DNA of 64,000 nucleotides from Sphingomonas gilva (GTDB lineage: Bacteria > Pseudomonadota > Alphaproteobacteria > Sphingomonadales > Sphingomonadaceae). The DNA is taken from assembly GCF_003515075.1 (NCBI RefSeq), contig NZ_QWLV01000002.1:682001-746000 (forward strand), given 5' to 3'. Of this stretch, positions 46,993 to 64,000 are shown in pieces. A program made the position numbers and the translations under genes. The stretch's first letter is position 1. Each line of letters begins with the position of its first letter. The notes below the pieces were generated by a model. The model searched no databases, was not told where the DNA came from, and saw only the letters and a list, made by a program, of their open reading frames with translations.

Positions 46993-48254
46993 GCCGCCAC
47001 CGCCTTCTTCGCCGGATCGCGCACCAGGCCCCACAGCAGCGCCGCGGCGACCAGGTCGAACACGCCCAGCGCGACGAAGAAGGGGGCGTAGCCGATCGTC
47101 GTCACCAGCCCGCCGATCGCCAGGGAGAACAGCAGCACGCCCAGATTGGCGAAGGTCCCGCCAAGTCCCGCGACCGTCCCCACCTCATGCCGCTTGAACA
47201 GATCGGGCGCCATGGTGAGGACGGTGATCGACAGCGTCTGGTGCGCGAAACCGCCGAGGCAAAGCAGCGCCAGCGCCGCATAGGGACTCTCTACCTGACC
47301 GACGAACATCATCCCCGTCATCAGCACCGCGCCGACCGTGAACGCCCCGCGCCGTGCGTTGATCAGGCTGACGCCGCGCCGCTGCAGCCACAGGCTCACC
47401 GCCGGGCCGAACAGGCAGCCCAGATCCGCCGCGACGAAGGGCAGCCAGGCGAACAGCGCGATCTGCGTGAGATCGAAGCCGCGCACGTTCATCAGGTAGA
47501 GCGGCATCCAGAAGGTGAGCGTGCCCCAGGTCGGGTCCGCCAGGAAACGCGGCAGCGCGATTCCCCAGAAGTTGCGCTGCCGGAGGATCGAGCCGATGGA
47601 CGGCCGGGCGCGGTCGGCGAGCAGATGCTCCTCCTGCCCCGCTTCGATATAGCTCGCCTCCGCGGGCGTGATCGCCGGATGCTCCCTGGGCGCGCGATAG
47701 TAGCGCAGCCACAGCACCACCCATATCAGCGCCAGCGCCCCCGATATGACGAACGCCGCCTGCCAGCTATGGACGAGGATGGCCCAGGCGACGAGCGGCG
47801 GCGCCAGCACCGATCCCATCGACGCGCCGATATTGTAGATCCCGCCGGCGAAGCCGCGCTCGCGCGCCGGGAACCACTCCGCGACAGCCTTCAGCCCCGC
47901 CGGCTGCGCCGCCCCTTCCGCGAAGCCGAGCGCGCCGCGCAAGGCCGCCAGGCTCACCCAACCGGCGGCGAACCCATGCGCCATGGTGATGAGGCCCCAG
48001 GAGACCGCGAACACCGCGAATCCCATACGCAGGCCGATCACGTCAAGCAGGTAGCCGGCCACCGGCTGGAGCATGATACCCAGCTGGAACGCGGCGGTGA
48101 CCCAGGCATATTGCAGCTCGTCGATGCCGAGGTCCGCCATCAAGGTCGGCGCGGCGACGCCCAGCACGCTGCGCGTCAGATAGTTGATGATCATCCCGAT
48201 CATCACCAGCGCGATGATCCACCAGCGCAATCCGCGCCGCCTCCGCCCCGCCAT
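46989..48254 (-). CDS. MFS transporter, hexuronate (ACS family) type
   Basis: 421 residues with 12 predicted helices. WWIIALVMIGMIINYLTRSVLGVAAP is the first helix, read here as ALVMIGMIINYLTRS and continuing. GFAEGAAQPAGLKAVAEWFP and NIGASMGSVLAPPLVAW match the anion:cation symporter family containing ExuT and glucarate transporters. With a coupled cytoplasmic GH43 enzyme it probably imports a xylo-oligosaccharide or an aldouronate. It is first in the two-gene operon, and a perfect LacI-type palindrome lies 20 bases upstream of its start. Confidence 0.9.
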   Translation of the reverse strand: MAGRRRRGLRWWIIALVMIGMIINYLTRSVLGVAAPTLMADLGIDELQYAWVTAAFQLGIMLQPVAGYLLDVIGLRMGFAVFAVSWGLITMAHGFAAGWVSLAALRGALGFAEGAAQPAGLKAVAEWFPARERGFAGGIYNIGASMGSVLAPPLVAWAILVHSWQAAFVISGALALIWVVLWLRYYRAPREHPAITPAEASYIEAGQEEHLLADRARPSIGSILRQRNFWGIALPRFLADPTWGTLTFWMPLYLMNVRGFDLTQIALFAWLPFVAADLGCLFGPAVSLWLQRRGVSLINARRGAFTVGAVLMTGMMFVGQVESPYAALALLCLGGFAHQTLSITVLTMAPDLFKRHEVGTVAGLGGTFANLGVLLFSLAIGGLVTTIGYAPFFVALGVFDLVAAALLWGLVRDPAKKAVAA

Positions 48255-48272
48255 CCGCCTCTCCACGATTCT

Positions 48273-48286
48273 TGTTAGCGCTAACC
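48273..48286. promoter_or_regulatory. xyl-box-like LacI-family operator
   Basis: GTTAGCGCTAAC (48274-48285) is a perfect 12-bp palindrome. The core TAGCGCTAAC equals that of the Xanthomonas xyl-box, a site in promoters of xylan-induced genes. It lies just upstream of the MFS-GH43 operon. Confidence 0.7.
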
Positions 48287-48398
48287 TGCTGTCTTGGAGC
48301 GCCGCTGTCCACCCCTTGCGGCGGGACGCTTCCCTTTTTGCATCGGCTTCGCTAAGGCGGCGCGTCTCGTTTTCAGCACCATTTGCAGGCGGTATTGT

Positions 48399-50526: not shown

Positions 50527-51045
50527 ATGGGGGATGCGTTGCGCGGGAAGCGAGGACGTTCGACTGAGCAGTTGAGCTATCGGTGGCGGCCGGCGCTGAT
50601 GGCGTTCTTCCTGCGCCGCGTCGACAGCCGCGCGGAGGCGGAGGACCTGACGCAGGAGGTGCTGCTGCGCATGCTCGACTGCGACCTGCCGGCGGGCGAG
50701 CCGGACAGCTACATCTTCAGGATCGCGCAGAACCTGCTTATCGACCGCGCCCGCAAGACGATGGTGCGCGACCGTTACCGGCAGCGTGTCGCACATGAGC
50801 CGGAGCGGATGCTCGACCCGCTCGATCCGCACCGCATCGCCGCCAGCCGCGAGCAACTGGCCGCCTTCGCCGCAGCGCTCGCCGAGCTGCCCGAGCGGAC
50901 GCGGACGATGTTCATCCTGTTCCGCCTCGAAAATCTCAGCCAGGAGACGATCGGCGCCGCATACGGCATCTCGGCCAGCGCGGTGAAGCAACAGATCGGC
51001 AAGGCGATGGCGACGCTCTCCGGCAAGATGCGGGACCTACGATGA
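50527..51045 (+). CDS. ECF sigma factor, FecI-like
   Basis: 172 residues with sigma region 2 (FFLRRVDSRAEAEDLTQEVLLRML, in parts RAEAEDLTQEVLLRML, and SYIFRIAQNLLIDRAR) and region 4 (LPERTRTMFILFRLENLSQE, AAYGISASAVKQQIGKAMA). It lacks regions 1 and 3. This is the FecI subtype that is switched on by an outer-membrane receptor through FecR. Its stop overlaps the start of the FecR gene by 4 bases. It probably drives the receptor gene 52152-55514. Confidence 0.92.
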   Translation: MGDALRGKRGRSTEQLSYRWRPALMAFFLRRVDSRAEAEDLTQEVLLRMLDCDLPAGEPDSYIFRIAQNLLIDRARKTMVRDRYRQRVAHEPERMLDPLDPHRIAASREQLAAFAAALAELPERTRTMFILFRLENLSQETIGAAYGISASAVKQQIGKAMATLSGKMRDLR

Positions 51046-52052
51046 CCGGCGCGGCGAACGACCAGCAGGACGAACGGGATACCGAGGCCGCCCTGTGGTG
51101 CCTGAGCCTCGCGGAGGGCGAGCTGCCGCCGGGCGAGCGCGAGGCGTTCGACCGCTGGTTCGCCGATCCGGCCAATGCGAGCGCCTTCGAGGACGCGGCG
51201 CGCGTCTGGAACGCCGCCGGGGGGGCCGCCGACATGCCGGAGCTGATCGGCATGCGCGGCGCGGCGCTCGCCTCCTATCGCCGCGCGAGCGGGCGGCGAT
51301 GGACGGTGCAGTCCGGTGGCCCGTGGCGCTGGGCGCTCGCGGTGGCGGCGGTGCTCGTCCTCGCCATCGTCTCGTTCACGCTGCTCCATGATCCGCGCCG
51401 GCATTATGAAACCAGGGTGGGCGAACGCCGCGTCGCGATCCTCGACGACCGCTCCCGCCTCACGCTCGACGCCGACAGCCGCGTCGATGTCGGGCTGGGC
51501 GAGGATCGCCGGGAGCTCGTGCTGGTGCGCGGCCGCGCACGGTTCGACGTCGCGAAGGATCCGCTCAGGCCCTTCACCGTCGCCGCGGGGGACAAGCTCG
51601 TCGTGGCGACCGGCACCTCGTTCAGCGTGGAGATGGTCGGCCGCGAGGTTCGCGTCCTGCTCTATGAAGGCCATGTGTCGGTCATCGACCGCGATCCGCC
51701 GGCCCCGGCGAAGGCGGCGGCCGAGGCGCGCCCGCTCCTCGCCGGGCAGGAGATGATCGCGACAATCGATGCCCCCGCCGCGGCGACCGTGGTCAAGGCC
51801 GTTTCCGCCCAATCCTCTTCCTGGCAGAACGGCCAGCTGAGCTTCGACGAGGAACCGATCGCGCTCGCCATCGCCCGGATGAACCGCCATTCCGAGGTCA
51901 AGCTCGTGCTCGGCGACGCGGGGGCGGCGCGCACCCGCGTCAACGGCGTGTTCACCGCGGGCGACGTCGAGGCCTTCGTCGAGGGCGTGACCATGCTCGG
52001 CGGCCTTCATGCCGAGCGCACGCCCGGGCGGGTGACGCTGACGAGCGGCTGA
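51042..52052 (+). CDS. FecR-family anti-sigma / signal transducer
   Basis: 336 residues. A cytoplasmic N-terminal domain (DUF4880-like: ALWCLSLAEGELPPGEREAF, RWFADPANASAFEDA) binds the sigma factor. One membrane helix (WALAVAAVLVLAIVSFTLL, about residues 104-122) leads to the periplasmic FecR domain (YETRVGERRVAILDDRS, FDVAKDPLRPFTVAAGD, EVRVLLYEGHVSV). A C-terminal STN-like segment (ALAIARMNRHSEVKLVLGD) contacts the receptor's signalling domain. It relays substrate binding from the receptor to the ECF sigma factor. Confidence 0.92.
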   Translation: MTGAANDQQDERDTEAALWCLSLAEGELPPGEREAFDRWFADPANASAFEDAARVWNAAGGAADMPELIGMRGAALASYRRASGRRWTVQSGGPWRWALAVAAVLVLAIVSFTLLHDPRRHYETRVGERRVAILDDRSRLTLDADSRVDVGLGEDRRELVLVRGRARFDVAKDPLRPFTVAAGDKLVVATGTSFSVEMVGREVRVLLYEGHVSVIDRDPPAPAKAAAEARPLLAGQEMIATIDAPAAATVVKAVSAQSSSWQNGQLSFDEEPIALAIARMNRHSEVKLVLGDAGAARTRVNGVFTAGDVEAFVEGVTMLGGLHAERTPGRVTLTSG

Positions 52053-52151
52053 CGAAACGGGGGACGTGCCGGTCATCGCTGTCCCTACGCCTTCGTCGCA
52101 CGTCTTACCCTGTGACGGCACAAAACATGCCGCGCTGAGGAGGGGGACATC

Positions 52152-55100
52152 ATGATCGCGAAGGCACGTTTCGCATATTCGCTTGCCGCATGGACGCTCG
52201 CGGCGTCGCTGGCCGCAGGGAGCGCTGCCGCGCCGGCCCACGCGCAGGACCAGGCCTACAGCTTCGATATCCCGTCGCAGGATCTGGGCGGCGCGCTGAA
52301 GGCGTTCGCGCAGGTCACGCGCGAACAGATCACCTTCAACGCGGCGGACATGCGCGGCAAGCGCGCACCCGCGCTCAAGGGCAGCTATCCGGCGGCGACG
52401 GCGCTTGACCTGCTGCTGCGCGGCTCGGGCATGGTGGCGGAACGCGGGCGCACGGGCCTCATCATGGTGCGGCCGGAGATGGGCCTGCATGGCAAGGACA
52501 CCAGCGGACCCGTGCAGGAAGCGACCGACGCCGAGGTTGCCCAGGCGCAAGCGGAGCCGGTGGGGCCGGACATCATCGTGACGGCGCAGAAGCGCGAGGA
52601 ATCGATCCAGGACGTGCCGATCGCGGTCAGCGCGTTCTCGGGGGAGTCGCTCGAAGATCTGAAGATCGAGGGCGGGTCCGAACTGCTGCGCGCGGTGCCC
52701 AACGTGACCTTCTCGAAGGCCAACTTCTCGGGCTACAACTTCTCGATCCGCGGCATCGGCACCAAGGCGGTGTCGTCGAGCACCGATCCTGCCGTGGCGG
52801 TCAGCTTCAACAACACGCCGCTCATCCGGAACCGGCTGTTCGAGCAGGAATTCTTCGATATCGAGCGGGTCGAGGTGCTGCGCGGGCCGCAGGGCACGCT
52901 CTACGGCCGCAACGCGACCGGCGGCGTGGTCAACGTGCTGCCGGCGCTGCCCGTCTACAGCTTCGAAGGCATGGCCAAGGTCGAGGTGGGCAATTACGAC
53001 ACCCGCCGCGCCAGCGGGATGATCAACGTGCCGTTGACCGACAATTTCGCGGTGCGCGCAGCGGGCGCCTACACCAAGCGCGAGGGGTTCGATTACAACA
53101 GCTTCAACGACACCCGCGTCAACGGCCGGGACCTGTGGTCGACGCGCTTGTCCGCCCAATGGGAGCCGTTCGACGGCTTCCGCGCCAACTTCATCTGGCA
53201 GCATTTCGAGGAGGACGACAACCGCTCACGCACCGGCAAGCAGCTGTGCACGCGCGACGAGGGACCGACGATGATCGGCGATACCGCCGTCAACGAAAAT
53301 ATACGCGCCCGGCTCAGCCAGGGCTGCAAGCCCGGATCGCTGTTCGACGAAGCGGCCTATGGCGTGGTCAACGCCGGGAGCTTTCCGCATGTATTCATCC
53401 CCAGCAACATCACTTACGGATTCGAATCCAACCCGAATGGCTCGGCCAATTTCAACGCTCCGATCAGGGCCGTTCCTCCCAATGTCGATCCCTATGCGGG
53501 GCGCGTGCAATCGCGCAACCTGCGCGAGATCGAAACCAGCTACGATCCCGTATTCCGCGCCAAGAACGACTTGTTTCAGTTCAATCTCGAATTCGGGCTG
53601 ACCGACGGGCTGCAACTGATCACCCAGACGGCATATGCGCGCGATCGCTATTACTCGTCGCAGGATTACAACCGCTTCGTCTCCAACCCCATCTTCGGAG
53701 ATTCGACCGACCCCGGCCTCGTCAACGTCTCGAGCACACCTGTGCTCTGGCCTAACGCAACGCCCGGGGGCATATACACTGATCCGCAACTCGGCCCGTC
53801 AAGCCGCATGCTCTCGGTCGATCTCAGCCAGTCGGCTAGCGAACAATGGAGCCAGGAACTACGGCTTCAATCCTCATGGGACGGACCGTTCAACTTCAGC
53901 GTTGGGGCTAATTATCTCGATTTTAGCGCCGAAGATGATTATTATGTATTCAACAATTTTTTCTCTTTGATTGCGGAATATTTTTATAATAGGGAAACAA
54001 TACGTCAACCTGATCTTATAATTGAGACGACACAGGACTGTCAGCCAACGGGTCCGTTCGATGCCGGCCCGGACTGCATCTATATCGATCGCAATCCACT
54101 GGAATCCATCAATGGTGACGGCCATAATTACTTTCGCAGCAAGAATGTCGTTCGTACCGAATCCTGGGCGCTGTTCGGCGAGGCGTATGTCAACGTCACG
54201 GATAACTTCAAGCTGACCGGCGGCTTGCGCTATACGGACGATAACAAGACCAGCACGCCCTATCCCAGCCAGCTGCTGCTGGGCCTGGGAACGGGGATGT
54301 CGGGGTCGACAGGCGGCAAGGTGGCGCGCGGTTTCGTGGCGCAACCGGATATCGATCAGCGATGGACGCGCTTCAGTGGCCGGGCGGTCGCCGACTGGAC
54401 CCCGCGATTGTCCTTCACCGACGATACGCTGATCTACGCGTCCTTCGCGCATGGCTACAAGGGTGGCGGCTCCAATCCCCCGCGCGTCGATTTCGACCCG
54501 AACATCGTTCGTTTCCAGCCGCTCGCCCAGACATTCGAACCGGAATATGTCAACGCGTTCGAGATCGGCACCAAGAATGTGCTGATGGATGGCCGGCTGA
54601 CGCTCAACCTCACCGGCTTCTATTACGACTACACCAACTATCAGGTGTCGCAGATCGTCGATCGCATCTCCCTGAACGAGAATTTCGACGCACGCAGCAT
54701 GGGGCTGGAATTCGAGATGGCCTGGCGACCCTCGCGCAGCTTCCGGCTCGACGCCAATCTCGGCTATCTCGACACCCGCATCGCGGATGGCGAGCAGTCG
54801 ATCGACGTCATGGACCGGACCCAGGGCAATGAGGATTGGGTCGTGGTGCGGCCCTGGGTGCAGGTTCCATCCAACTGCATCGCGCCGCGCGAAGCGGTCG
54901 AGACCATCGTCGGTTCGTTCCTTGGCCCAGACATTGGCACCTTCGGCCTGGCGGGGCTGTGCAGCGCTTCGAACCGCATCGGCGATTACATTACTGAAAC
55001 AGTCGGCGGCGGTGGTCTTCCGTTCGATGCGCTGTATCGGTTCGTCTACGATCCGCTGCTGCCGTACGACCCGAACCTGAGCCCGATCGACGTGCTGGGC

Positions 55101-55514
55101 GGCACCGCGCCACGCAGCGGCGCGCCGAACGGCGGCCAGGGCTTCTACGCCGATCTTGGCGGCAACGAGCTGCCCAATTCGCCGCACCTGACCTTCAACG
55201 TCGGCGCGCAATACACCTTCTTCCTCGACGCGTTCGAACTGACCTTCCGCGGCGACTATTACCGCCAATCGGAAAGCTTCGCCCGTGTCTACAACACCGA
55301 ATATGACCGGCTGCGCGGATGGGACAACGCCAATCTGGCGGTGACGCTGGAGAACCGCGACTGGGATTTGGTGCTGCAGGCCTATGTGAAGAACGTGTTC
55401 GACAACACGCCGATCACCGACGCCTTCACCAATTCGGACGACACCGGCCTCACCACCAACGTCTTCACGCTCGATCCGCGCATCATCGGGTTCAGCGTCA
55501 TGAAACGCTTCTAG
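52152..55514 (+). CDS. TonB-dependent transducer/receptor with STN domain
   Basis: 1120 residues. A signal peptide ends APAHAQ. An STN signalling domain (about residues 35-110: YSFDIPSQDLGGALKAFAQV, ALDLLLRGSGM) is followed by a TonB-box region (DIIVTAQKREE), the plug (SIRGIGTKAVSSSTDPAVAV, EVLRGPQGTLYGRNATGGVV) and a large barrel ending FSVMKRF. The STN domain plus upstream sigma/FecR pair make it a FecA-type transducer. The ligand is unknown; the sequence is not close to known siderophore receptors by eye. A region around codons 595-630 is strikingly AT-rich (see findings). GGAGGGGG precedes the ATG. Confidence 0.93.
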   Translation: MIAKARFAYSLAAWTLAASLAAGSAAAPAHAQDQAYSFDIPSQDLGGALKAFAQVTREQITFNAADMRGKRAPALKGSYPAATALDLLLRGSGMVAERGRTGLIMVRPEMGLHGKDTSGPVQEATDAEVAQAQAEPVGPDIIVTAQKREESIQDVPIAVSAFSGESLEDLKIEGGSELLRAVPNVTFSKANFSGYNFSIRGIGTKAVSSSTDPAVAVSFNNTPLIRNRLFEQEFFDIERVEVLRGPQGTLYGRNATGGVVNVLPALPVYSFEGMAKVEVGNYDTRRASGMINVPLTDNFAVRAAGAYTKREGFDYNSFNDTRVNGRDLWSTRLSAQWEPFDGFRANFIWQHFEEDDNRSRTGKQLCTRDEGPTMIGDTAVNENIRARLSQGCKPGSLFDEAAYGVVNAGSFPHVFIPSNITYGFESNPNGSANFNAPIRAVPPNVDPYAGRVQSRNLREIETSYDPVFRAKNDLFQFNLEFGLTDGLQLITQTAYARDRYYSSQDYNRFVSNPIFGDSTDPGLVNVSSTPVLWPNATPGGIYTDPQLGPSSRMLSVDLSQSASEQWSQELRLQSSWDGPFNFSVGANYLDFSAEDDYYVFNNFFSLIAEYFYNRETIRQPDLIIETTQDCQPTGPFDAGPDCIYIDRNPLESINGDGHNYFRSKNVVRTESWALFGEAYVNVTDNFKLTGGLRYTDDNKTSTPYPSQLLLGLGTGMSGSTGGKVARGFVAQPDIDQRWTRFSGRAVADWTPRLSFTDDTLIYASFAHGYKGGGSNPPRVDFDPNIVRFQPLAQTFEPEYVNAFEIGTKNVLMDGRLTLNLTGFYYDYTNYQVSQIVDRISLNENFDARSMGLEFEMAWRPSRSFRLDANLGYLDTRIADGEQSIDVMDRTQGNEDWVVVRPWVQVPSNCIAPREAVETIVGSFLGPDIGTFGLAGLCSASNRIGDYITETVGGGGLPFDALYRFVYDPLLPYDPNLSPIDVLGGTAPRSGAPNGGQGFYADLGGNELPNSPHLTFNVGAQYTFFLDAFELTFRGDYYRQSESFARVYNTEYDRLRGWDNANLAVTLENRDWDLVLQAYVKNVFDNTPITDAFTNSDDTGLTTNVFTLDPRIIGFSVMKRF

Positions 55515-55588: not shown

Positions 55589-56338
55589 TCAGCCCAGCTG
55601 CGTCGTCATCAGGAAGCGCGCGCGGCTCTCCGCCGCCTTTCTCTGCAGCTCGCGCATCTCGCGCTCCTCGGCCGCGTCGAGCATCGATTCGAGCAGGCGG
55701 TTGAAGTGTCGCCGCATGGCGAGCCGGGCGCCCTGCGGGTCGCGGCGGCGCAGTGCGTCGACGATCGCGCCGTGCTCGGCCTGGCGGGTCTTGCCGTCGT
55801 GCTGGCAGACCGAGGCGTGGGTCGCGCGCACCTCGGGCAATTCGGTGCGCAGCCGCCACAGCGTGCGGATAACATGGATGATCGCGCCGTTGCCCGACGC
55901 GGCGGCGATGGTGGTGTGGAACTCGCGGTCGGCGGCGTTGATGCTGTCCTCGTCGGCCTCGTCGTTCGCCATCACCTCGAGCAGACCATCCAGCTTCTCG
56001 ATGTCGCCTTCCGAAATGATCGGCGCGGCAAGCGCGGCGGCCTCGGCCTCGAACAGCGATCTTGCCTCGGTCAATTCGAAGGCGCTCACCTTCGGCAGCC
56101 GCTCGCCGCCGGTCGTGGCGCCATCGGGCGAGACATAGACGCCGGAGCCTGTCTTGATCGCGACGCGCCCCGTCGCCTGCAGCGCGATCTCCGCCTCGCG
56201 GATGGTGACTCGGCTGACGCCGAAGCGCTCGGACAGTTCACGCTCTCCGGGCAGGCGCGATCCAGGCGGGAACACCCCTTCCTCGATCAGCGCGATGATC
56301 TGGTCGGCGATATCCTGGAAGAGCCGTCGATCAGCCAT
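55589..56338 (-). CDS. GntR-family regulator, FadR/FCD subfamily
   Basis: 249 residues. The N-terminal winged helix (FQDIADQIIALIEEGVFPPG, RLPGERELSERFGVSR, TIREAEIALQATGRVAI, GSGVYVSP) is classic GntR. The C-terminal FCD domain (ARSLFEAEAAALAAP, REFHTTIAAASGNGAI, HGAIVDALRRRDP, RRHFNRLLESML) binds a small organic acid through a metal with conserved Asp/His residues. Subfamily members such as UxuR and ExuR respond to hexuronates. Lying directly downstream of the alginate receptor gene, it is the likely repressor of the alginate cluster, sensing DEH or a derivative. Confidence 0.9.
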   Translation of the reverse strand: MADRRLFQDIADQIIALIEEGVFPPGSRLPGERELSERFGVSRVTIREAEIALQATGRVAIKTGSGVYVSPDGATTGGERLPKVSAFELTEARSLFEAEAAALAAPIISEGDIEKLDGLLEVMANDEADEDSINAADREFHTTIAAASGNGAIIHVIRTLWRLRTELPEVRATHASVCQHDGKTRQAEHGAIVDALRRRDPQGARLAMRRHFNRLLESMLDAAEEREMRELQRKAAESRARFLMTTQLG

Positions 56339-56402
56339 GTTCAGTCCAATTCCCCGCGATAGGCATGGAGAATGTCATAGTCGCTGCACCGGCGCAGGCA
56401 AG

Positions 56403-56426
56403 CGCCGCCGGGAATGCCCGGCGGCG
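56403..56426 (-). terminator. hairpin after the alginate TonB receptor gene
   Basis: CGCCGCCGGG (56403-56412) pairs with CCCGGCGGCG (56417-56426). It is placed right after the receptor stop; no U-tract follows on the minus strand. Confidence 0.5.
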
Positions 56427-56432
56427 AAGCCG

Positions 56433-59303
56433 TCAGATGCGGACGCGGACGCTGAGGAAGTATTTCGAGCCATAATAATGGTATTGGCGAATGCTGCCCT
56501 TGACCGGCATGTCGGTGATCTTGGGCTCGTTGAAGATGTTGAGCGCCTCGGCGCGGAGCGAGATGTTGCGGTTGACCTGGTAGGTCGCGCGCAGATCGAA
56601 CGTCTCGTTGTCACGCACATAGCGCAGCTGGTTGTTGCCGCCGACAAAGTCCTGATAATAGCCAGAGCGGTAGTTGAAGATGCCCTGCAGCGAGACCGGT
56701 CCCGCATCGTAATAGGCCTGCGCCGACAGCACGTGCTTCGAATAGCCAGAGATGTTGGCCGGCGGGATCAGCCCCTGCGTCACTTCTCCGGTATCGAGAT
56801 CGACGACGTCGCCAAGGTCGATGTCCTGCGTCTCGAAATCGGAGTCGGCATAATTGTAGCTGACCTTGCCGCCCAACCCGTCGAACGGCGCGGGCAGCCA
56901 GGTGAAGCGGTTGGCCAGCGTCAATTCGAACCCGTAGATGCGGCTCTGATCGTCGCTGTTCCGCGTCTGGGTGACGGGGATCGTCACCGTCTCGCCGCCG
57001 ATGACGAAATCCTCGTCGATCCGCACCGGGATGAAGCCGCCGGTGAACTTCTTGTAATAGACCGTGCCGGAAAGGATCGTGTCCGGATTGGGATAATATT
57101 CGAGCGCGGCGTCGGCGTTCCACGACATCAGCGGCTCCAGCCGTGGGCTGCCATTGGCGTCGATCCCGTCGATCGCCTCCTCGATAGTGGTGAAGGCCTC
57201 GCCGTCATCCAGCCGGATGGTGCGGCCAGCGCCCAGGCTGCTCGGCGCGGGACGCGACATCGCGCGATAACCGGCGAGGCGCAGAAGCAGGTTCCGGTCG
57301 AGCTCGAAGATCGCATTGATGCTGGGCAGGAACCTGGTCGTCTCGTTCTCGATCGTCACCCCCACGAACGAATCGTCGACCGGTTCCAGGGTGATGGCGC
57401 CGGTGTCCGGATCGACATCCACCTCAAGATCGGCGCGCAACCCGCGCGAGGTGACATGGGTGTTGACCACGCGCACGCCGAAATTGCCGCGAACCGGCAT
57501 GTCGCCCAGCGTCGAATCGTACGACGCCATGACATAGCCCGCCCAGGTGTTTTCCTCGACGTCGCGATTGGCGGGATCGCGGACGTCCTCGTTGCCGCCG
57601 GGATCCTCGGTGCCGAGATAGCCGCGGAACAGGCAGATCGGATCGAACGTCGCCCAGCTGCTGATCGAGTTGCCCGGCGCGTCCGACAGGAAGTCGCGCT
57701 GCGGGAACACCGTGCGGCAGGCGAGGTTCACGTCGCGATCGACGTTGCGATCGTTCTGGGTGATCTCAACCCGATCGTCGAAATCCTCGTAGGTGAGCTT
57801 CGTGTAACGCGCGCCGGCGTCGATCTGGCTGAGGAAGCCGCCATCGAGCTGATAGTTGACGTCGAACCGCCCCGCCCAGATCTCGTTCTCGCGCTGTGTC
57901 TGGTCGCGGCGGATGCGCGCGTCGTCGCTGAACAGGTCGTGGTTGGTGATGTCGAAGCGCGGATCGAAGGTGATCGTCGGCGCGTAGCCGTTCTCGATCG
58001 TGTAGGTATAGGGCACGCGCTGGTTGTTGAGCGGCGTGCGGTTGCCGTAGATGTCGAGCGGATCGGAACGCAGGCGGGTGGAGCGTTCGATCTCGACGCG
58101 CTTGGTGCCCGAATAGGAGGCGTCGGCGGAGAGCGTCAGCCGATCGGTCGCCTCCCATGCGATGTCGATGCCGCCACCCAGATATTCCTCGCCGCGCTCG
58201 AGCAGGGTCGAGGTCGATTCGAGCGAGGAGACGCCGCTGTAGGATTCGAGGAAGCGCCCCTCCTCGTTGATCACGCGGTTGGAGATGCTGTACCGGCCCT
58301 CGGACAGGTTGAGGTCGTGCCGCTCCTCGGAAAAGTCGCGGTTCGAATATTGCGCGTCGATATTGATGTCGAGCGTGTCGCTCGGCTGCCACTGGATCGC
58401 GCCGAACAGCGCATCGCGGCGATCATGCTCGACGATCTGGCGGAAGGTGATCGCATTGGGCGCGAGGTAGAAGGGCGTGTCCTCGCCGCGGTCCACCTCG
58501 GGGCAGTTGCCGGTGACGGTCTGCGTCGCGTCGCACGCCACCCAGGTCGTGCTCGCCGCCAGCGTCTCTTCGGGGTTGCTCGTCTCGTTGCGCTGCGCGC
58601 CCAGCGAGATGCCGATGCGCCCCAGCCCGGTTTCGAACTGGTCGACATAGGAAAGGGTGGCGCGATAGCCGAAGGGATCGTCCGTGCCGATCCGCTCGCC
58701 ATAGGGATTGTAGTTGCCCTTGAGCTCCGCCTGGATGCGGGTGCGATTGAAGTCGAGCGGGCGGAGCGTCTCCAGCTCGATCGTGCCGGCGACGCCGCCT
58801 TCGACCAGATTGGCTTGCTGCGTCTTGTAGATCTTGATGTTGTTGATCAGCTCGGAGGGGAACTGGTTGAAGTTCACCGCGCGGTCGCCGGAGCCGTTGG
58901 AGGCATCGCGGCCATTGAATGTGGCGTTGGAAAGGAAGGGCCCCAGGCCCCGGATCGCGATCTCCGACGCATCGCCCTTTTCGCGATGCGTGGTCGCGCC
59001 GGTGATGGTCTGGATCGCCTGGCCGACCGACAGCGCCGGCAGATCGCCGATATCGTCGGACGAGAGTGCATCGACGATGGCGGTCTCGCGCCGCTTGGTC
59101 TCGATCGAGGTCTGGATCGTTTCGCGGATGCCGGTGACGATGATCTCATCGCCCTCGGAGGCTCCCTCTTCAGCGACCGGCGCGTCCTGCGCGTCCTGCG
59201 CGGCCGCCATTGCCGGCAGGGCGAGCGCGGCGGTCGCGCAGCCCAGCAGCAGAGCCATCCGGCGTCCCGCGAAACCATTGGCGTTGTCTTGCGCGCTGCG
59301 CAT
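56433..59303 (-). CDS. TonB-dependent receptor (TIGR01782-type), probably for alginate oligomers
   Basis: 956 residues. A signal peptide ends AMAAAQD. The TonB-box DEIIVTGIRET is followed by a plug with SSDDIGDLPALSVGQAIQTI, EIAIRGLGPFLSNATFNGR and VEGGVAGTIELETLRPLDF, the pattern of the Xanthomonas/Caulobacter glycan receptor family. A large barrel ends FLSVRVRI. ATG at 59303 has GGAGG 8 bases upstream and gives a proper signal peptide. It lies downstream of the PL17-MFS-SDR-esterase operon but is separated by a terminator and has its own upstream region with an operator-like palindrome. The ligand is inferred from the neighbours. Confidence 0.92.
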   Translation of the reverse strand: MRSAQDNANGFAGRRMALLLGCATAALALPAMAAAQDAQDAPVAEEGASEGDEIIVTGIRETIQTSIETKRRETAIVDALSSDDIGDLPALSVGQAIQTITGATTHREKGDASEIAIRGLGPFLSNATFNGRDASNGSGDRAVNFNQFPSELINNIKIYKTQQANLVEGGVAGTIELETLRPLDFNRTRIQAELKGNYNPYGERIGTDDPFGYRATLSYVDQFETGLGRIGISLGAQRNETSNPEETLAASTTWVACDATQTVTGNCPEVDRGEDTPFYLAPNAITFRQIVEHDRRDALFGAIQWQPSDTLDINIDAQYSNRDFSEERHDLNLSEGRYSISNRVINEEGRFLESYSGVSSLESTSTLLERGEEYLGGGIDIAWEATDRLTLSADASYSGTKRVEIERSTRLRSDPLDIYGNRTPLNNQRVPYTYTIENGYAPTITFDPRFDITNHDLFSDDARIRRDQTQRENEIWAGRFDVNYQLDGGFLSQIDAGARYTKLTYEDFDDRVEITQNDRNVDRDVNLACRTVFPQRDFLSDAPGNSISSWATFDPICLFRGYLGTEDPGGNEDVRDPANRDVEENTWAGYVMASYDSTLGDMPVRGNFGVRVVNTHVTSRGLRADLEVDVDPDTGAITLEPVDDSFVGVTIENETTRFLPSINAIFELDRNLLLRLAGYRAMSRPAPSSLGAGRTIRLDDGEAFTTIEEAIDGIDANGSPRLEPLMSWNADAALEYYPNPDTILSGTVYYKKFTGGFIPVRIDEDFVIGGETVTIPVTQTRNSDDQSRIYGFELTLANRFTWLPAPFDGLGGKVSYNYADSDFETQDIDLGDVVDLDTGEVTQGLIPPANISGYSKHVLSAQAYYDAGPVSLQGIFNYRSGYYQDFVGGNNQLRYVRDNETFDLRATYQVNRNISLRAEALNIFNEPKITDMPVKGSIRQYHYYGSKYFLSVRVRI

Positions 59304-59358
59304 CAGCTTTCCTCCCAACTTATCTTTATACCGGCTTGCTGAACCCAATACCGGAAAT

Positions 59359-59364
59359 TGTCAA
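59359..59364 (-). promoter_or_regulatory. -35-like TTGACA upstream of the alginate receptor gene
   Basis: A perfect TTGACA on the minus strand in an AT-rich 110-base leader. No convincing -10 lies at standard spacing, so only part of a promoter is supported. Confidence 0.3.
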
Positions 59365-59408
59365 CGGATTTATACATACCTTTAATGTCTCATTTCTCCG
59401 ATTAATGT

Positions 59409-59426
59409 CTATACCAATTGGTAGAG
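59409..59426. promoter_or_regulatory. 18-bp palindrome, candidate FCD-regulator operator
   Basis: CTATACCAATTGGTAGAG is symmetric at 16 of 18 positions with a perfect core TACCAATTGGTA. The TTGGT/ACCAA half-sites resemble those of FadR-family hexuronate regulators, here in inverted order. It lies between the terminator of the esterase gene and the receptor gene. Confidence 0.55.
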
Positions 59427-59427
59427 T

Positions 59428-59462
59428 ACAAAAATTCCCCCGGCGACGACAGCCGCCGGGGG
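59428..59462 (-). terminator. rho-independent terminator of the alginate enzyme operon
   Basis: CCCCCGGCG (59437-59445) pairs with CGCCGGGGG (59454-59462). On the minus strand the stem is followed by AATTTTTG. It sits just after the esterase stop. Confidence 0.88.
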
Positions 59463-59475
59463 CAGGGAGAGAGAT

Positions 59476-60345
59476 TTACGGCAGCAGCTGGCTGCGCAGA
59501 TTGGGGGCTACGCCTGCGAGATCGCGCGCGACGAGCCTGGCGAAGACGTTGGCGCCGACATCGCCGACATGGGTGTAGTCGAACTTGCGCGTCACCCGCC
59601 CGCGCGGCGCCTTGGCGTTTGCCGGAGGCGCATCCGCGGTTTCAGGCGCCGGACGCGGCTTGAGCGTCGTCCCGGCGACCGCCGCCGCGCGCTCCTCCGC
59701 CGTCGGCGGCTCCTGCGCGAGCTCGAGCGAGGTCTCCGGCCCCATCCGCGTCACCGCTGCGGCGCTGGTCCGGTTGAGATCGACCAGAGCCGCCCCCGTC
59801 GCCGCCGCGACCTTGCGCACCTCTTCGGACCAGGGCTCCAGCGTATTCCTGAGCTTGCCGTCCCGGAACTCGCGCCGGGTGAGCGGCGTCAGCAACACGG
59901 GAATTGCGCCGGCCGCGCGCACCTCCGCCACCATCTTCGTCAGATTGGCCGGAAATTCGGTGGTCATGTCGGTCCAGCGCTCGGGCCTGGAGGACTGGTC
60001 GTTATGGCCGAACTGGATCAGCACATAGGTTTCGCGATAGCCGGGCACCCTCGCCTCGGCGAGCGCGATGTCCCATGATCCTTCGGCGCGATAGCTGCGC
60101 GTGCTGCGCCCGCCGCGCCCCGCATTGAGGCACGCGACCGACGATTTCACATGCCGCGCGCAAAAGGCGGAGGCCCAGCCCGAATGCGGCGCCATGGTCG
60201 AATCGCCGACCAGGATGATCTTGTAGGGCTTGAGCGGCGGCGCGTCGGTCCGCTCCCTGGGTACGGGATCGCCCGCCTCGCGCGGCGGCGAGGGCGCGGC
60301 CTGCACCGGTGCGGCAGCGAGCAACGCAAGCGCCGTCAGCATCAT
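59476..60345 (-). CDS. CE12-like SGNH/GDSL esterase, secreted
   Basis: 289 residues with a signal peptide (MLTALALLAAAPVQA). The SGNH blocks are intact: IILVGDSTMAPHSG (nucleophile Ser), NAGRGGRSTRSYRAEG (Gly of block II), LIQFGHNDQSS (Asn of block III) and KFDYTHVGDVGA (catalytic Asp/His). The GRGGRSTRSY element is characteristic of rhamnogalacturonan acetylesterases (CE12). A Pro/Ala/Glu-rich insertion (about residues 205-245) separates the last block. Its ATG overlaps the stop of the SDR gene, tying it to the alginate operon. No pectin gene is nearby, so O-acetyl groups on alginate are the likeliest target. That is inference. Confidence 0.85.
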   Translation of the reverse strand: MMLTALALLAAAPVQAAPSPPREAGDPVPRERTDAPPLKPYKIILVGDSTMAPHSGWASAFCARHVKSSVACLNAGRGGRSTRSYRAEGSWDIALAEARVPGYRETYVLIQFGHNDQSSRPERWTDMTTEFPANLTKMVAEVRAAGAIPVLLTPLTRREFRDGKLRNTLEPWSEEVRKVAAATGAALVDLNRTSAAAVTRMGPETSLELAQEPPTAEERAAAVAGTTLKPRPAPETADAPPANAKAPRGRVTRKFDYTHVGDVGANVFARLVARDLAGVAPNLRSQLLP

Positions 60346-61094
60346 GAGAAGCCCAGCCCGCCGTTGATGTCCATGTTGACGCCGGTCAGGAAGGCCGATG
60401 CATCGGAGGCGAGGAAGGCGATCGCCTCGGCCACCTCCTCGGGCTTCCCTTCGCGCCGGAGCGGCGTGTTGCCCGCGGTCGCCAGTCGCCCTTCGGGCTT
60501 GGAGAAGATGTCGTGGAAGCTGGTGCCGATCAGGCCGGGGCACACCGCGTTCACCCGGATGCCCTGCGGCCCCATCTCCTTCGCCCAAGCGCGGGTCAGC
60601 GTCATCAGCGCGCCCTTGGCGGTGGCGTAGATCGATGCGCCCGGCCCGCCGCCGTCGCGCCCGGCGAGCGAGGAGACGTTGACGATCGCGCTGCCTTCAC
60701 CCAGCAGCGGCTTGGCCGCCTTGGTGACGAGGAAGGCGCTTTTGAGGTTGAGCGTCATCACCTCGTCGAAGAAGCCCTCGTCCATGTCGTCGAGCGTCTT
60801 CCGGGCGACCATGCCGCCCGCGCAGTTGACCAGGATGTCGATCCGCCCGCCAAAGGCCCCGCGCGTCTCCTCGATCAGCCGGGCGACATCGTCCGCCTTG
60901 GTGACATCGGCCCGCACCACCAGCGCGCGGCCGCCCGCGTCCTTGATCGCCTGCGCGGTCGCCTCGGCCGCCGCGCTGTCGCTCTTGTAGTTGATCGCGA
61001 CGGCGGCGCCCGCCCGCGCCAGCCGCAAGGACACCGCGCGGCCAATATCGCGGCCGCCGCCGGTGACGAGCGCGACCTTGTTGGTGAGATCCAT
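60342..61094 (-). CDS. SDR-family oxidoreductase, probable DEH reductase
   Basis: 250 residues, classical short-chain dehydrogenase. The cofactor loop is LVTGGGRDIGRAVS. The segment INYKSDSAA after the second strand lacks the acidic residue of NADH enzymes and suggests NADPH. NCAGGM, the catalytic Ser in NVSSLAG and YATAKGAL (YxxxK) are present, and the C-terminus (FLTGVNMDINGGLGF) is typical. In an operon with PL17 and an ExuT-like transporter it fits the enzyme that reduces 4-deoxy-L-erythro-5-hexoseulose uronate (DEH) to 2-keto-3-deoxygluconate. It starts 5 bases after the MFS stop. Confidence 0.85.
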   Translation of the reverse strand: MDLTNKVALVTGGGRDIGRAVSLRLARAGAAVAINYKSDSAAAEATAQAIKDAGGRALVVRADVTKADDVARLIEETRGAFGGRIDILVNCAGGMVARKTLDDMDEGFFDEVMTLNLKSAFLVTKAAKPLLGEGSAIVNVSSLAGRDGGGPGASIYATAKGALMTLTRAWAKEMGPQGIRVNAVCPGLIGTSFHDIFSKPEGRLATAGNTPLRREGKPEEVAEAIAFLASDASAFLTGVNMDINGGLGFS

Positions 61095-61099
61095 GAAAG

Positions 61100-62398
61100 T
61101 CAGTCCTTCTTTTCTTCGATGGGGGCGATCCGGCCGCCGAGCAGCCAGACCGAAATGAGCGAGAGGGGAACGATGGCGGCGCCCAGGATGAAGATCGGCG
61201 CGTAGCTGACCTCGGTCATCGCCGGCACCAGCCAGGTGGTGATGAGCGTGCCGGCCACCGCCGCGGTGCCGCTGACGCCGGCAAGCGTGCCGACCGCGCC
61301 GCCGCCGAAATAGTCGGACGGCAGCGTCTGGATGTTGCCGATCGCCATCTGGAAGCCGAACAGGATCGCGGCGATCAGCAGCACCGCGGTCAGCGGATCG
61401 GCCGCGCGCGCGGTCAGCAGCAGCGCGGGCAGCATGATCAGGCAGCCGATCGTGATCGCCGCCTTCCGCGCGAAGTTCACCGACTTGCCCGAAGCGATCA
61501 GCCGTCCGGCGAACCAGCCGCCGAACAGGCTGCCCAGCATCGCGCCGACATAGGGCACCCAGGCGAAATAGCCGATCTGCTTGACGTCGAAGCCGAAGGT
61601 CTCGGCGAGGTAGAGCGGCAGCCAGGACACGAACAGCCACCAGACGGGGTCGAGGAAGAAACGGCCGAGGATCACCGCCCAGCTTTCACGCCGCTTGAGC
61701 AGCTCGCCGAGCGGCGGGGCATAGCCGCTGCGCCTGGCGGCGTCCTCGGCGCTTTCGTCGTCGCCCATGATATGGCGCCGCTCGGCTTCGCTCAGCCAGG
61801 GATGCGCATCGGGATCGGACTTGTAGAACCACAGCCAGGGCAGCAGCCACAGGAAGCCGAGTATGCCGACGACGAGGAAGGTCGTCCGCCAGCCGAAGCC
61901 GACGAACAGCAGCGCCACCAAAGGCGCCGAGACGATCGCGCCGAGCGATGCGCCGGCGTTGAATATCCCTTGAGCGAACGCACGCTCGCGTGAGGGGAAC
62001 CACAGCGCATTGGCCTTGGCCGCACCGGGCCAGTTGCCCGCCTCGCTGACACCCAGCGTCACGCGCAGCAGCGCCAGCAGACCCAGGCCGCGCACCAGCG
62101 CGTGCGCGGCGATCGACAGCGACCACACGACGATCGAAAGCGCGAAGCCCATCCGCGTGCCGACCACGTCGAAGATCTTGCCGAACAGCGACTGGCCGAA
62201 GGCGTAGGCCAGCATGAATACGGTGACGAGGAGCGCGTAATCCTCCTTCGACGCGCCGATGTCCTCGGACACCGCCGGCCACATCACCGCGAGCGCGTTG
62301 CGGTCGATATAGTTGATGACCGTCGCCACCGCGATCATCCCGATCACGACCCAGCGCAGGCCGCCCTTCCTGGTGCTTGTCATGGCAGCCTCCGTCAT
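61100..62398 (-). CDS. MFS transporter, ExuT/hexuronate type
   Basis: 432 residues with 12 helices. GMIAVATVINYIDRNALAVM begins the first helix (NYIDR is the family motif). VSEAGNWPGAAKANALWFP and NAGASLGAIVSAPLVAL match the hexuronate/ACS family. It is a paralogue of the transporter at 46989-48254 but belongs to the alginate operon, where it would import the monomer DEH made in the periplasm. ATG at 62398 overlaps the stop of the PL17 gene by 4 bases; ATG 62383 is an alternative. Confidence 0.9.
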   Translation of the reverse strand: MTEAAMTSTRKGGLRWVVIGMIAVATVINYIDRNALAVMWPAVSEDIGASKEDYALLVTVFMLAYAFGQSLFGKIFDVVGTRMGFALSIVVWSLSIAAHALVRGLGLLALLRVTLGVSEAGNWPGAAKANALWFPSRERAFAQGIFNAGASLGAIVSAPLVALLFVGFGWRTTFLVVGILGFLWLLPWLWFYKSDPDAHPWLSEAERRHIMGDDESAEDAARRSGYAPPLGELLKRRESWAVILGRFFLDPVWWLFVSWLPLYLAETFGFDVKQIGYFAWVPYVGAMLGSLFGGWFAGRLIASGKSVNFARKAAITIGCLIMLPALLLTARAADPLTAVLLIAAILFGFQMAIGNIQTLPSDYFGGGAVGTLAGVSGTAAVAGTLITTWLVPAMTEVSYAPIFILGAAIVPLSLISVWLLGGRIAPIEEKKD

Positions 62399-64000
62399 TG
62401 GTCGAAGCGGCCCACCGGGCCAGTCCATTCGAGGGTTCGTCCGCCGACCTGGGCGTTGTGCGCCACGCCCGCGGCGGTGTTGTCGGCGAAGGCGAGGACG
62501 ACGGTGCGCCCCGCCTTGGTGCGGATCGTCACGATATCGGCCGCGCCCGCGCGTGCATGGCTCAGGCCGGCGATGCCGCTCTTGCTGCCGACCGTCGTCT
62601 CGGCAGCCGCGTCGTAACGGCCGTGCGGCTCGAGCAGGCTGACGAAGGTGGCGTCGCGCGCGCCGTCGACCCGCTGGATCACCACCGGCTCGCGCCTGAG
62701 GTTGAAGCGCGGATCGTTCGCTCCGCTCTCCGCCAGGATCACCTCGGCGCCCTTCGGCGGCAGCATCCGATAGGTGTAGAAGCGCCCGTGATTGAGCCAG
62801 GTGACCGTGCCTTCATCCACCGCCGGCCGCCCGGTCGCATCGACCCACAGGTGCTGATAGCCATTGGCCTTGCCCAGCACCGGCCGCGTCGTGACGTTCG
62901 ATTGCAGATCGAACCCGGTCTCGATCAGATGCCCGGCATAGTGCAGCGGCAGATCGTAGCGATGCGCGGCGTCGCTCGACGCCTTCATCACATCGACCAC
63001 CAACGGCTGCGCCAGCCCCTCGACATCGACCTGGGCCAGCGCGCGGCGCATGCGCACGCCCTTGTACGCGCCCGCCACCTCGGCGACCGACCAGCGCGTC
63101 GGCCCCTCGCCGTTGAAGGCGAGCTGGGTCGGCGCGACCTTCTCCGCCGTCTTCAGCTTGGCGTCGAAATGGCTGGTTTCGTCCACCACCAGCGTGTTGT
63201 GCGCGATGGTCTGCTGCGCCCAACTGTCGTTTTCGGGCAGATAGCGCCCGCCGTCCTTCGCCTCGATATTGAGGAAGCGCGCGGCGCCGTAATCGGTGAC
63301 GATCGGCTGGCCCTGGTCGTAGAGCAGCCAGTGGAGCTTGTCGAAATGGCCGTGGCCCATGCCCTGCGAGGTGTTCTTGGCGACCAGCACCTGATCGTCC
63401 GCGTCCAGCCCGGCGCGCAGGATGGCGAGCGCGCCCTGGTCGCCTTCGGGTCCGTCGCGGAACAGCTTGGAGGCGAAGGGAAACGGCTTGGCCTTGCCGG
63501 CGGCGAGATCGCGCGCCACGGCGAGCCCGTCGGGCGTCAGCACCGTCCGCCCCTGCCACTGCGCGATCGACAGCAGCCCCGGATCGCGCGTCGCGCCATA
63601 GGCCACCGCGACGCCGTAGTAGAGCTCCTCGGTCTTCAGGCTCTTGTCGGGCATGGCGTCGTTGATCGGGAAGAAATAGCCGCCATGCGTCATCTGGATC
63701 GCGGTGGTGACCGCCTTCAGCACGATGCCGTCGCGATATTCGAAGATCTTGCGCCCCGGATCGTTCGCCTGGATCGCGCTGGCGAACACCACGAAGGGCT
63801 GAAGCGCGTAACGCTGGTAATAGGGGCCTTCGGCATAATAACCGTCGGGCGAGAACAGCAGATCGAGCTGGCGGAGGAATCCCGCCTTGCCGCTCTTGTC
63901 GAGCCCGAGCAGCGCCTTTTCGACCAGATCCTTGTCGCCAAGCACATAGCCGGTCATGCCGACCCCGGCATTGGCCCAGGTCGCATGGTTGTGGATGCGG
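62395..64000 (-). CDS. PL17-family oligoalginate lyase, N-terminus cut by window edge
   Basis: At least 535 codons, continuing past the right edge. An alginate-lyase helical domain (NHATWANAGVGMTGYVLGD, SPDGYYAEGPYYQRYALQP) is followed by a heparinase II/III-type beta-sandwich domain. NTSQGMGHGHFDKLHWLLYD and VTDYGAARFLNIEAKDGG carry the conserved Tyr/His region, and GRYLPENDSWAQQTIAHNTL is highly typical of Alg17C-type exolyases. These cut alginate oligomers to the unsaturated monouronate. The gene is first in the visible operon. The start codon and any signal peptide are outside the window; an internal ATG at 63957 is not the true start because the family fold continues upstream. Confidence 0.9.
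   Translation of the reverse strand, partial: RIHNHATWANAGVGMTGYVLGDKDLVEKALLGLDKSGKAGFLRQLDLLFSPDGYYAEGPYYQRYALQPFVVFASAIQANDPGRKIFEYRDGIVLKAVTTAIQMTHGGYFFPINDAMPDKSLKTEELYYGVAVAYGATRDPGLLSIAQWQGRTVLTPDGLAVARDLAAGKAKPFPFASKLFRDGPEGDQGALAILRAGLDADDQVLVAKNTSQGMGHGHFDKLHWLLYDQGQPIVTDYGAARFLNIEAKDGGRYLPENDSWAQQTIAHNTLVVDETSHFDAKLKTAEKVAPTQLAFNGEGPTRWSVAEVAGAYKGVRMRRALAQVDVEGLAQPLVVDVMKASSDAAHRYDLPLHYAGHLIETGFDLQSNVTTRPVLGKANGYQHLWVDATGRPAVDEGTVTWLNHGRFYTYRMLPPKGAEVILAESGANDPRFNLRREPVVIQRVDGARDATFVSLLEPHGRYDAAAETTVGSKSGIAGLSHARAGAADIVTIRTKAGRTVVLAFADNTAAGVAHNAQVGGRTLEWTGPVGRFDQ

Follow-up and report, generated by a model that had tools for sequence, protein, structure and literature searches.

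A CE12-lineage SGNH esterase at the end of an alginate operon in Sphingomonas gilva: a probable alginate O-acetylesterase

Introduction

Bacterial alginate is acetylated at O-2 and O-3 of mannuronate, and acetylation is described as protecting the polymer from most lyases (excerpts of PMC4444821). The same excerpts describe a module that deacetylates alginate, the N-module of the Pseudomonas syringae epimerase PsmE, a predicted SGNH hydrolase. In excerpts of a second report (PMC11784403), all five P. aeruginosa alginate samples of one study carried acetyl groups; some lyases are said to favor the non-acetylated polymer, while Smlt1473 accepts the acetylated form. Carbohydrate esterase family 12 (CE12) is described, in excerpts of PMC9487903, as a family of rhamnogalacturonan acetylesterases (RGAEs). 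Here we analyze a stretch of 64,000 nucleotides from S. gilva (the window; G000:C10:682001-746000 of a 3.54-Mb genome), in which an operon for alginate use ends with the gene of a CE12-lineage SGNH esterase. This esterase was apparently recruited once from a pectin-type ancestor and is now probably a dedicated periplasmic alginate O-acetylesterase. We infer its substrate and every enzymatic step, and its location from signals read by eye.

Results

The esterase gene closes an alginate operon

A single minus-strand operon encodes lyases of polysaccharide lyase families 6 and 17 (PL6 and PL17), a major facilitator superfamily (MFS) transporter, a short-chain dehydrogenase/reductase (SDR) and the SGNH esterase, with successive junctions of −4, −4, +5 and −4 bp. 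It starts outside the window, at the gene of the PL6 lyase (715 amino acids; L003:10572-12719), which overlaps PL17 by 4 bp. The PL17 oligoalginate lyase gene (726 amino acids; L003:8395-10575) fills positions 62395-64000 (−) of the window, its 5′ end lying 575 bases past the window. It shares 4 bp with the MFS gene (61100-62398, −; Pfam MFS_1), which is followed after a 5-base gap by the gene of the SDR oxidoreductase (60342-61094, −; 250 amino acids; Pfam adh_short_C2), a presumed reductase of 4-deoxy-L-erythro-5-hexoseulose uronate (DEH). The esterase gene (59476-60345, −; 289 amino acids) overlaps the SDR gene by 4 bp. Genes, order and junctions from PL17 to the esterase (−4, +5 and −4 bp) are as the original prediction had them.

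Directly past the esterase stop codon lies a GC-rich, terminator-like hairpin with a T tail (59437-59462, −), which suggests that the lyase operon ends with the esterase gene, although a hairpin scan of the region gave a weak result (1 found, versus a mean of 0.6 and s.d. of 0.8 in shuffles). Beyond it, on the same strand, follow the genes of a TonB-dependent receptor and an ExuR-like GntR regulator. The junctions suggest that the five genes from PL6 to the esterase are co-expressed, and the hairpin past the esterase likewise favors the co-expression with alginate genes claimed from the first inspection of this DNA.

The esterase is CE12-like in sequence and predicted fold

The esterase matches Lipase_GDSL_2 in Pfam, and the NCBIfam model PaeY gives it 31 bits against a cut-off of 1000 bits. 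All SGNH blocks are present: GDS (Ser49), Gly79, GHND (Asn115) and DxxH (Asp256 and His259), and these five residues are invariant in 52 aligned sequences. Gly113 of block III is Ala in some members (for example at locus L083), which is why a strict SGNH regular expression recovered only 8 of 18 known positives; a relaxed version recovered 18 of 18, and it also picked some PL6 and PL17 proteins and a 583-amino-acid protein in L213. Judged by eye, the esterase and its orthologues carry a Sec-type N-terminal signal.

Among PDB sequences the closest were YxiM (1.9e-9) and RGAE (4.1e-5). An AlphaFold model built from the 52 sequences (mean pLDDT 91.4) returned RGAE and YxiM first in Foldseek. With VIA-align 2 it superposed on YxiM with Z 25.4 (195 residues, 2.0 Å) and on RGAE with Z 24.5 and 24.4 (198 residues, 2.0 Å), and the next structure scored 19.1. 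By nearest solved sequence and by predicted fold, the protein is thus CE12-like, in support of the original proposal.

The lyases resemble alginate lyases

The PL17 protein contains the Pfam domains Hepar_II_III_C and Alginate_lyase and matches the alginate lyase 4NEI over residues 28-719, nearly its full length (5.9e-243), as expected of a PL17 member. At 1e-10, the best PDB matches listed for PL17 were alginate lyases in 7 of 7 cases. Against the NCBIfam oligoalginate lyase model NF042990 it reached 1041 bits over residues 21-726, under the cut-off of 1400 bits, and none of 249 genomes of the host's family (the family sample, own genome included) reached that cut-off; therefore, we do not claim equivalog identity for it. 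The PL6 protein matched 8BWK (5.9e-177) and the alginate lyase AlyGC (5GKD, 4.2e-176), with chondroitinase B at only 5.3e-30, which groups it with alginate lyases; every named enzyme among its best PDB matches is an alginate or poly-mannuronate lyase, the others being PL6 enzymes without a name. Both lyases appear by eye to have an N-terminal signal. The MFS protein matched best, under the cut-off, the D-galactonate transporter subfamily (2A0114) of NCBIfam. We take the SDR to be a DEH reductase and the MFS protein to be the uptake carrier, as in the established pathway.

These matches bear on the idea that the esterase removes a different acyl group, or attacks a different uronate polymer handled by this pathway, with alginate as one substrate only. 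SGNH esterases often have broad specificity, and the exact specificity of the operon's PL6 and PL17 is predicted from sequence matches. The uniform PL17 matches nevertheless point to alginate, as do those of PL6, in which chondroitinase B stands far below, and we consider a broader or different substrate unlikely.

Searches for PL7 (PF08787) and AlgX (PF16822) found no match in the carrier genomes, and none in control genomes either, so these negatives do not demonstrate absence. A reading of the cluster as one for bacterial alginate free of G (guluronate) blocks, suggested by the lack of PL7 matches, was dropped because the PL6 lyase is close to AlyGC-type enzymes and because contig C9 of the same genome encodes two further PF05426 proteins. 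AlyGC prefers G. One of these PF05426 genes (L234:9714-10961; closest to 3NFV and 8BDQ) adjoins genes of a GH88 enzyme and receptor-like proteins, and the other (C9:148645-149463; L235) overlaps the region of an aldose epimerase gene.

The pairing is conserved within one lineage

Esterase-bearing loci were collected from two sources. The genome_contigs scan gave 80 loci among the matches listed; 14 of these, a lower bound for that source, are esterase-bearing alginate loci (esterase identity ≥63%). Together with 4 loci of the family sample, they make up the 18 esterase loci. The other 66 loci of the scan and 10 loci of intermediate identity from the family sample form a set of 76 distant loci (identity ≤56%), in which L074 and L117 have the same sequence.

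A colinear, same-strand PL17-MFS-SDR-esterase-receptor-GntR block was found in 18 of 18 loci of the esterase subfamily, the window's own included: it was complete in 14/14 loci from genome_contigs and 4/4 from the family sample. PL6 stands in front of the block in 17 of the 18 (13 of the 14 from genome_contigs), the exception being L082. The 14 loci come from Sphingopyxis, Sphingomonas, Novosphingobium, Hephaestia, Caulobacter and two hosts of less certain placement. PL17 identity to the window's protein goes down to 63% in this set, and the receptors of the other 17 clusters are 55-67% identical to the window's. By contrast, no PL17 or PL6 match at E 1e-10 was obtained in any of the 76 distant loci, some of which are cut by contig ends (13 of the 66 from genome_contigs are shorter than 18 kb for this reason).

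An esterase match occurred in 19 of the 249 family genomes, and the top four (70-100% identity) lie in the same alginate cluster. PL17 is present in 28 of these genomes and is paired with the esterase in 4. The combination seen in the window is thus present and conserved in related genomes, as the original prediction would have it, but as a minority trait: the PL17-esterase pairing is conserved and limited to one lineage.

A single apparent origin and clade-specific residues

In a quick tree, the 18 esterases fall on one side of a branch that separates them from the 76 others (SH-aLRT 99). In the PL17 tree, the 18 esterase-bearing clusters and one esterase-less cluster (L159) share one branch with support 100/100; the tree has no outgroup, and 8% of bootstrap trees group the esterase-bearing PL17s without L159. 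The simplest reading would be that the esterase was gained once, from a CE12 source of the pectin type, and lost once, in L159. The L082 cluster, in Caulobacter sp. D5, lacks PL6 and lies beside genes that look, from their translations, like cytochrome oxidase genes; this copy probably reflects a transfer between families.

Such a history, with its single apparent gain and its apparent loss, is also what one might see if the esterase were a neutral passenger without a role in alginate use. Yet the gene has been kept in its slot across all 18 loci despite the PL17 divergence given above, its catalytic residues are invariant in all 11 of the 18 that alignment A2 covers, and a different SGNH hydrolase occupies the same slot elsewhere. 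We regard mere hitch-hiking as very improbable.

Compared with 74 relatives, the 18 esterases have several residues of their own. Position 122 is E in 18/18 esterases versus G in 65/74 relatives, and position 124 is W in 17/18 versus S in 74/74. The changes P118 to S and A76 to G, at positions almost fixed in the relatives, are found in 18/18, and R83 and K254, rare among the relatives, are likewise present in 18/18. In sequence, the changed residues sit near blocks II, III and V.

Distant relatives often lie in pectin loci, and one paralog follows a rhamnogalacturonan lyase gene

A marker of pectin use (CE8, PL10 or RpiB-like) was found in 39 of the 76 distant loci versus 0 of the 18 alginate loci, with marker queries taken from two of the distant loci themselves (L069 and L075). 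Among 73 open reading frames hand-picked from 251 listed neighbors of distant loci, CE8 (6), glycoside hydrolase family GH28 (6) and PL10 (3) were recognized, together with non-pectin neighbors (GH95, GH43 and elongation factor/BipA). One esterase relative, in Xanthomonas prunicola CFBP 8353 (L129:10001-10747), has two stop codons inside the matched stretch and may be a pseudogene or reflect a sequence error.

The S. gilva genome itself has two more CE12-like paralogs, on contig C12, with 36-40% identity to the operon esterase. One stands directly after a gene for a PL11-type rhamnogalacturonan lyase, near genes of PcRGLX-type and GH35 enzymes, and the other stands some 22 kb farther along. 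Because of these separate paralogs, pectic acetyl groups seem to have enzymes of their own in this genome.

The operon esterase might still be a pectin or rhamnogalacturonan acetylesterase that is expressed with alginate genes for growth on mixed plant material. RGAE is the CE12 activity known so far, as far as the excerpts of PMC9487903 go, and about half of the next relatives, by the marker count above, lie among pectin genes. The complete lack of these markers in the alginate loci speaks against this explanation, as does the separation of the esterase subfamily as a group with changed residues. It is further weakened by the CE12-like paralogs among rhamnogalacturonan genes, one directly after a lyase gene, and appears improbable to us.

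Another SGNH type occupies the same slot

We also fetched 20 PL17 clusters from members of the phylum outside the host's family. In 4 of these (L209-L212), a different SGNH hydrolase is encoded directly after the SDR (L209:13094-14281, L210:5759-6946, L211:12881-14068 and L212:13162-14373), and in L212 the SDR/hydrolase junction is a GTGA overlap. Three of the hosts share one genus code, and one belongs to the window's class. BLASTP gave no significant match between this hydrolase and the window esterase. Among solved structures, the hydrolase of these four clusters is closest to PbeAcXE (7TOG) and a polyvinyl alcohol esterase; PbeAcXE is described as deacetylating xylose adjoining methylglucuronate (excerpts of PMC9105624). 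Relatives at E 1e-60 were present in 23 of 398 genomes, with ≥49% identity in the genomes of L209-L212 and ≤44% in the other 19. The hydrolase may be a second type of alginate esterase. That a single slot of one operon core is filled by two different SGNH types is our strongest hint that the pathway includes ester removal.

Candidate regulator sites and neighboring genes

The GntR/FCD regulator gene (55589-56338, −), whose best NCBIfam match is ExuR, under that model's cut-off, follows the gene of the TonB-dependent receptor (56433-59348, −; TonB-Xanth-Caul type; 971 amino acids). In front of the receptor gene, the palindrome TACCAATTGGTA (59412-59423, no strand assigned) is a candidate GntR site. 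The half-site ATTGGTA/C occurs upstream of PL6/PL17 in 11 of the 18 loci (missing in 7) and upstream of the receptor gene in 15 (missing in 3). ATTGGTA was counted 18 times in the 36 upstream stretches, versus a mean of 1.0 over 209 letter permutations, and the one permutation above it (AATTGGT, 27) is this very motif, offset by one base. ATTGGTC was counted 17 times, versus a permutation mean of 0.9 and maximum of 10. Coding DNA had 8 half-sites in 127 kb, a comparison that overstates the contrast because upstream DNA has another composition. As an operator, these half-sites are suggestive only.

Elsewhere in the window, the translations of positions 45394-48300 (−) resemble a GH43 enzyme and a second MFS transporter, whose genes are perhaps a separate small sugar cluster, and translations of 50527-55514 (+) read as an ECF-type sigma factor, a FecR-like protein and a TonB-dependent receptor in series.

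Discussion

If the esterase is an alginate O-acetylesterase, the TonB-dependent receptor would take acetylated alginate fragments into the periplasm, where the esterase would strip O-2 and O-3 acetyl groups from mannuronate by the usual Ser-Asp-His mechanism. PL6 and PL17 would then cut the deacetylated chain to unsaturated monouronate, which the MFS carrier would move to the cytoplasm for reduction of DEH by the SDR towards 2-keto-3-deoxygluconate. By clearing acetylated mannuronate for PL17, the esterase would allow the cell to use acetylated alginate of Pseudomonas or Azotobacter.

Several observations weigh against this proposal. The nearest characterized relatives of the esterase act on rhamnogalacturonan, and Smlt1473 is reported to cut acetylated alginate unaided (excerpts of PMC11784403). 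Given the apparent single origin, the 18 loci cannot be counted as independent of one another. Clade-specific positions within 9 residues of a catalytic block number 10 of 24 (our own count, in linear distance), which is no clear excess, since those stretches make up about 30% of the protein. No esterase match at E 1e-10 was found genome-wide in 24 of the 28 family genomes with PL17, and the esterase profile matched 0 of the 20 PL17 clusters from elsewhere in the phylum (L226 covers only 4.3 kb and L213 14 kb); 16 of these 20 have neither SGNH type.

The original prediction had proposed acetylated alginate as a possible substrate of the esterase. A dedicated role of this kind is favored by the strict genomic association, the apparent single origin and the clade-specific residues, and also by the separate rhamnogalacturonan CE12 paralogs and the second SGNH type in the slot elsewhere, all of it genomic evidence. 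An alginate O-acetylesterase is the best available reading on that evidence, and it would describe one lineage's variant of alginate use.

We lean, by a little, towards a wider claim: that these proteins form a dedicated, alginate-specific subfamily within the CE12 lineage and are the first alginate O-acetylesterases to come from a catabolic operon, that alginate operons have captured esterases of different SGNH types at least twice, and that bacteria living on acetylated bacterial alginate would therefore repeatedly depend on a de-esterification step that has been overlooked. Titles and abstracts among the literature matches listed, mostly non-subscription, named no esterase gene in a catabolic alginate operon. 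If true, the proposal would account for the ability of some bacteria to live on alginate made by others, and the esterase would be a partner for lyases against alginate biofilms.

Among known systems, the CE12 enzymes RGAE of Aspergillus aculeatus (1DEO) and YxiM of B. subtilis (2O14) have SGNH blocks in common with the window esterase and are its nearest solved structures in fold and sequence. Unlike them, the window esterase sits in an alginate operon, and its identity to them over the structural alignment is 27-28%; from its relatives it differs in forming its own tree group and in residues near blocks II, III and V.

Sphingomonad alginate clusters without the esterase (GntR, PL6, PL17, often a KdgF-like cupin, MFS and SDR) share the PL6-PL17-MFS-SDR core in all 23 that we fetched (one of the 24, the fragment G082, was left out), with no match to the esterase profile in any of the 23. 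A KdgF-like cupin is encoded in 15 of these 23 clusters (L159-L181) versus 0 of the 18 esterase-bearing ones. A one-query whole-genome search likewise found no such cupin in 4 esterase-bearing genomes; this search, which covered 11 genomes and found the cupin in 2, also missed it in the esterase-less G023 and G186. In the L209-L212 clusters, the PL6-PL17-MFS-SDR core is likewise followed by an SGNH hydrolase gene, but its product is of another type than the window esterase and has a long N-terminal part.

The PsmE N-module is likened to the window esterase by description, combining alginate deacetylation with a predicted SGNH fold, as proposed here (excerpts of PMC4444821). It is described as part of an epimerase in an alginate producer, whereas the window esterase is encoded by a gene of its own in a catabolic operon.

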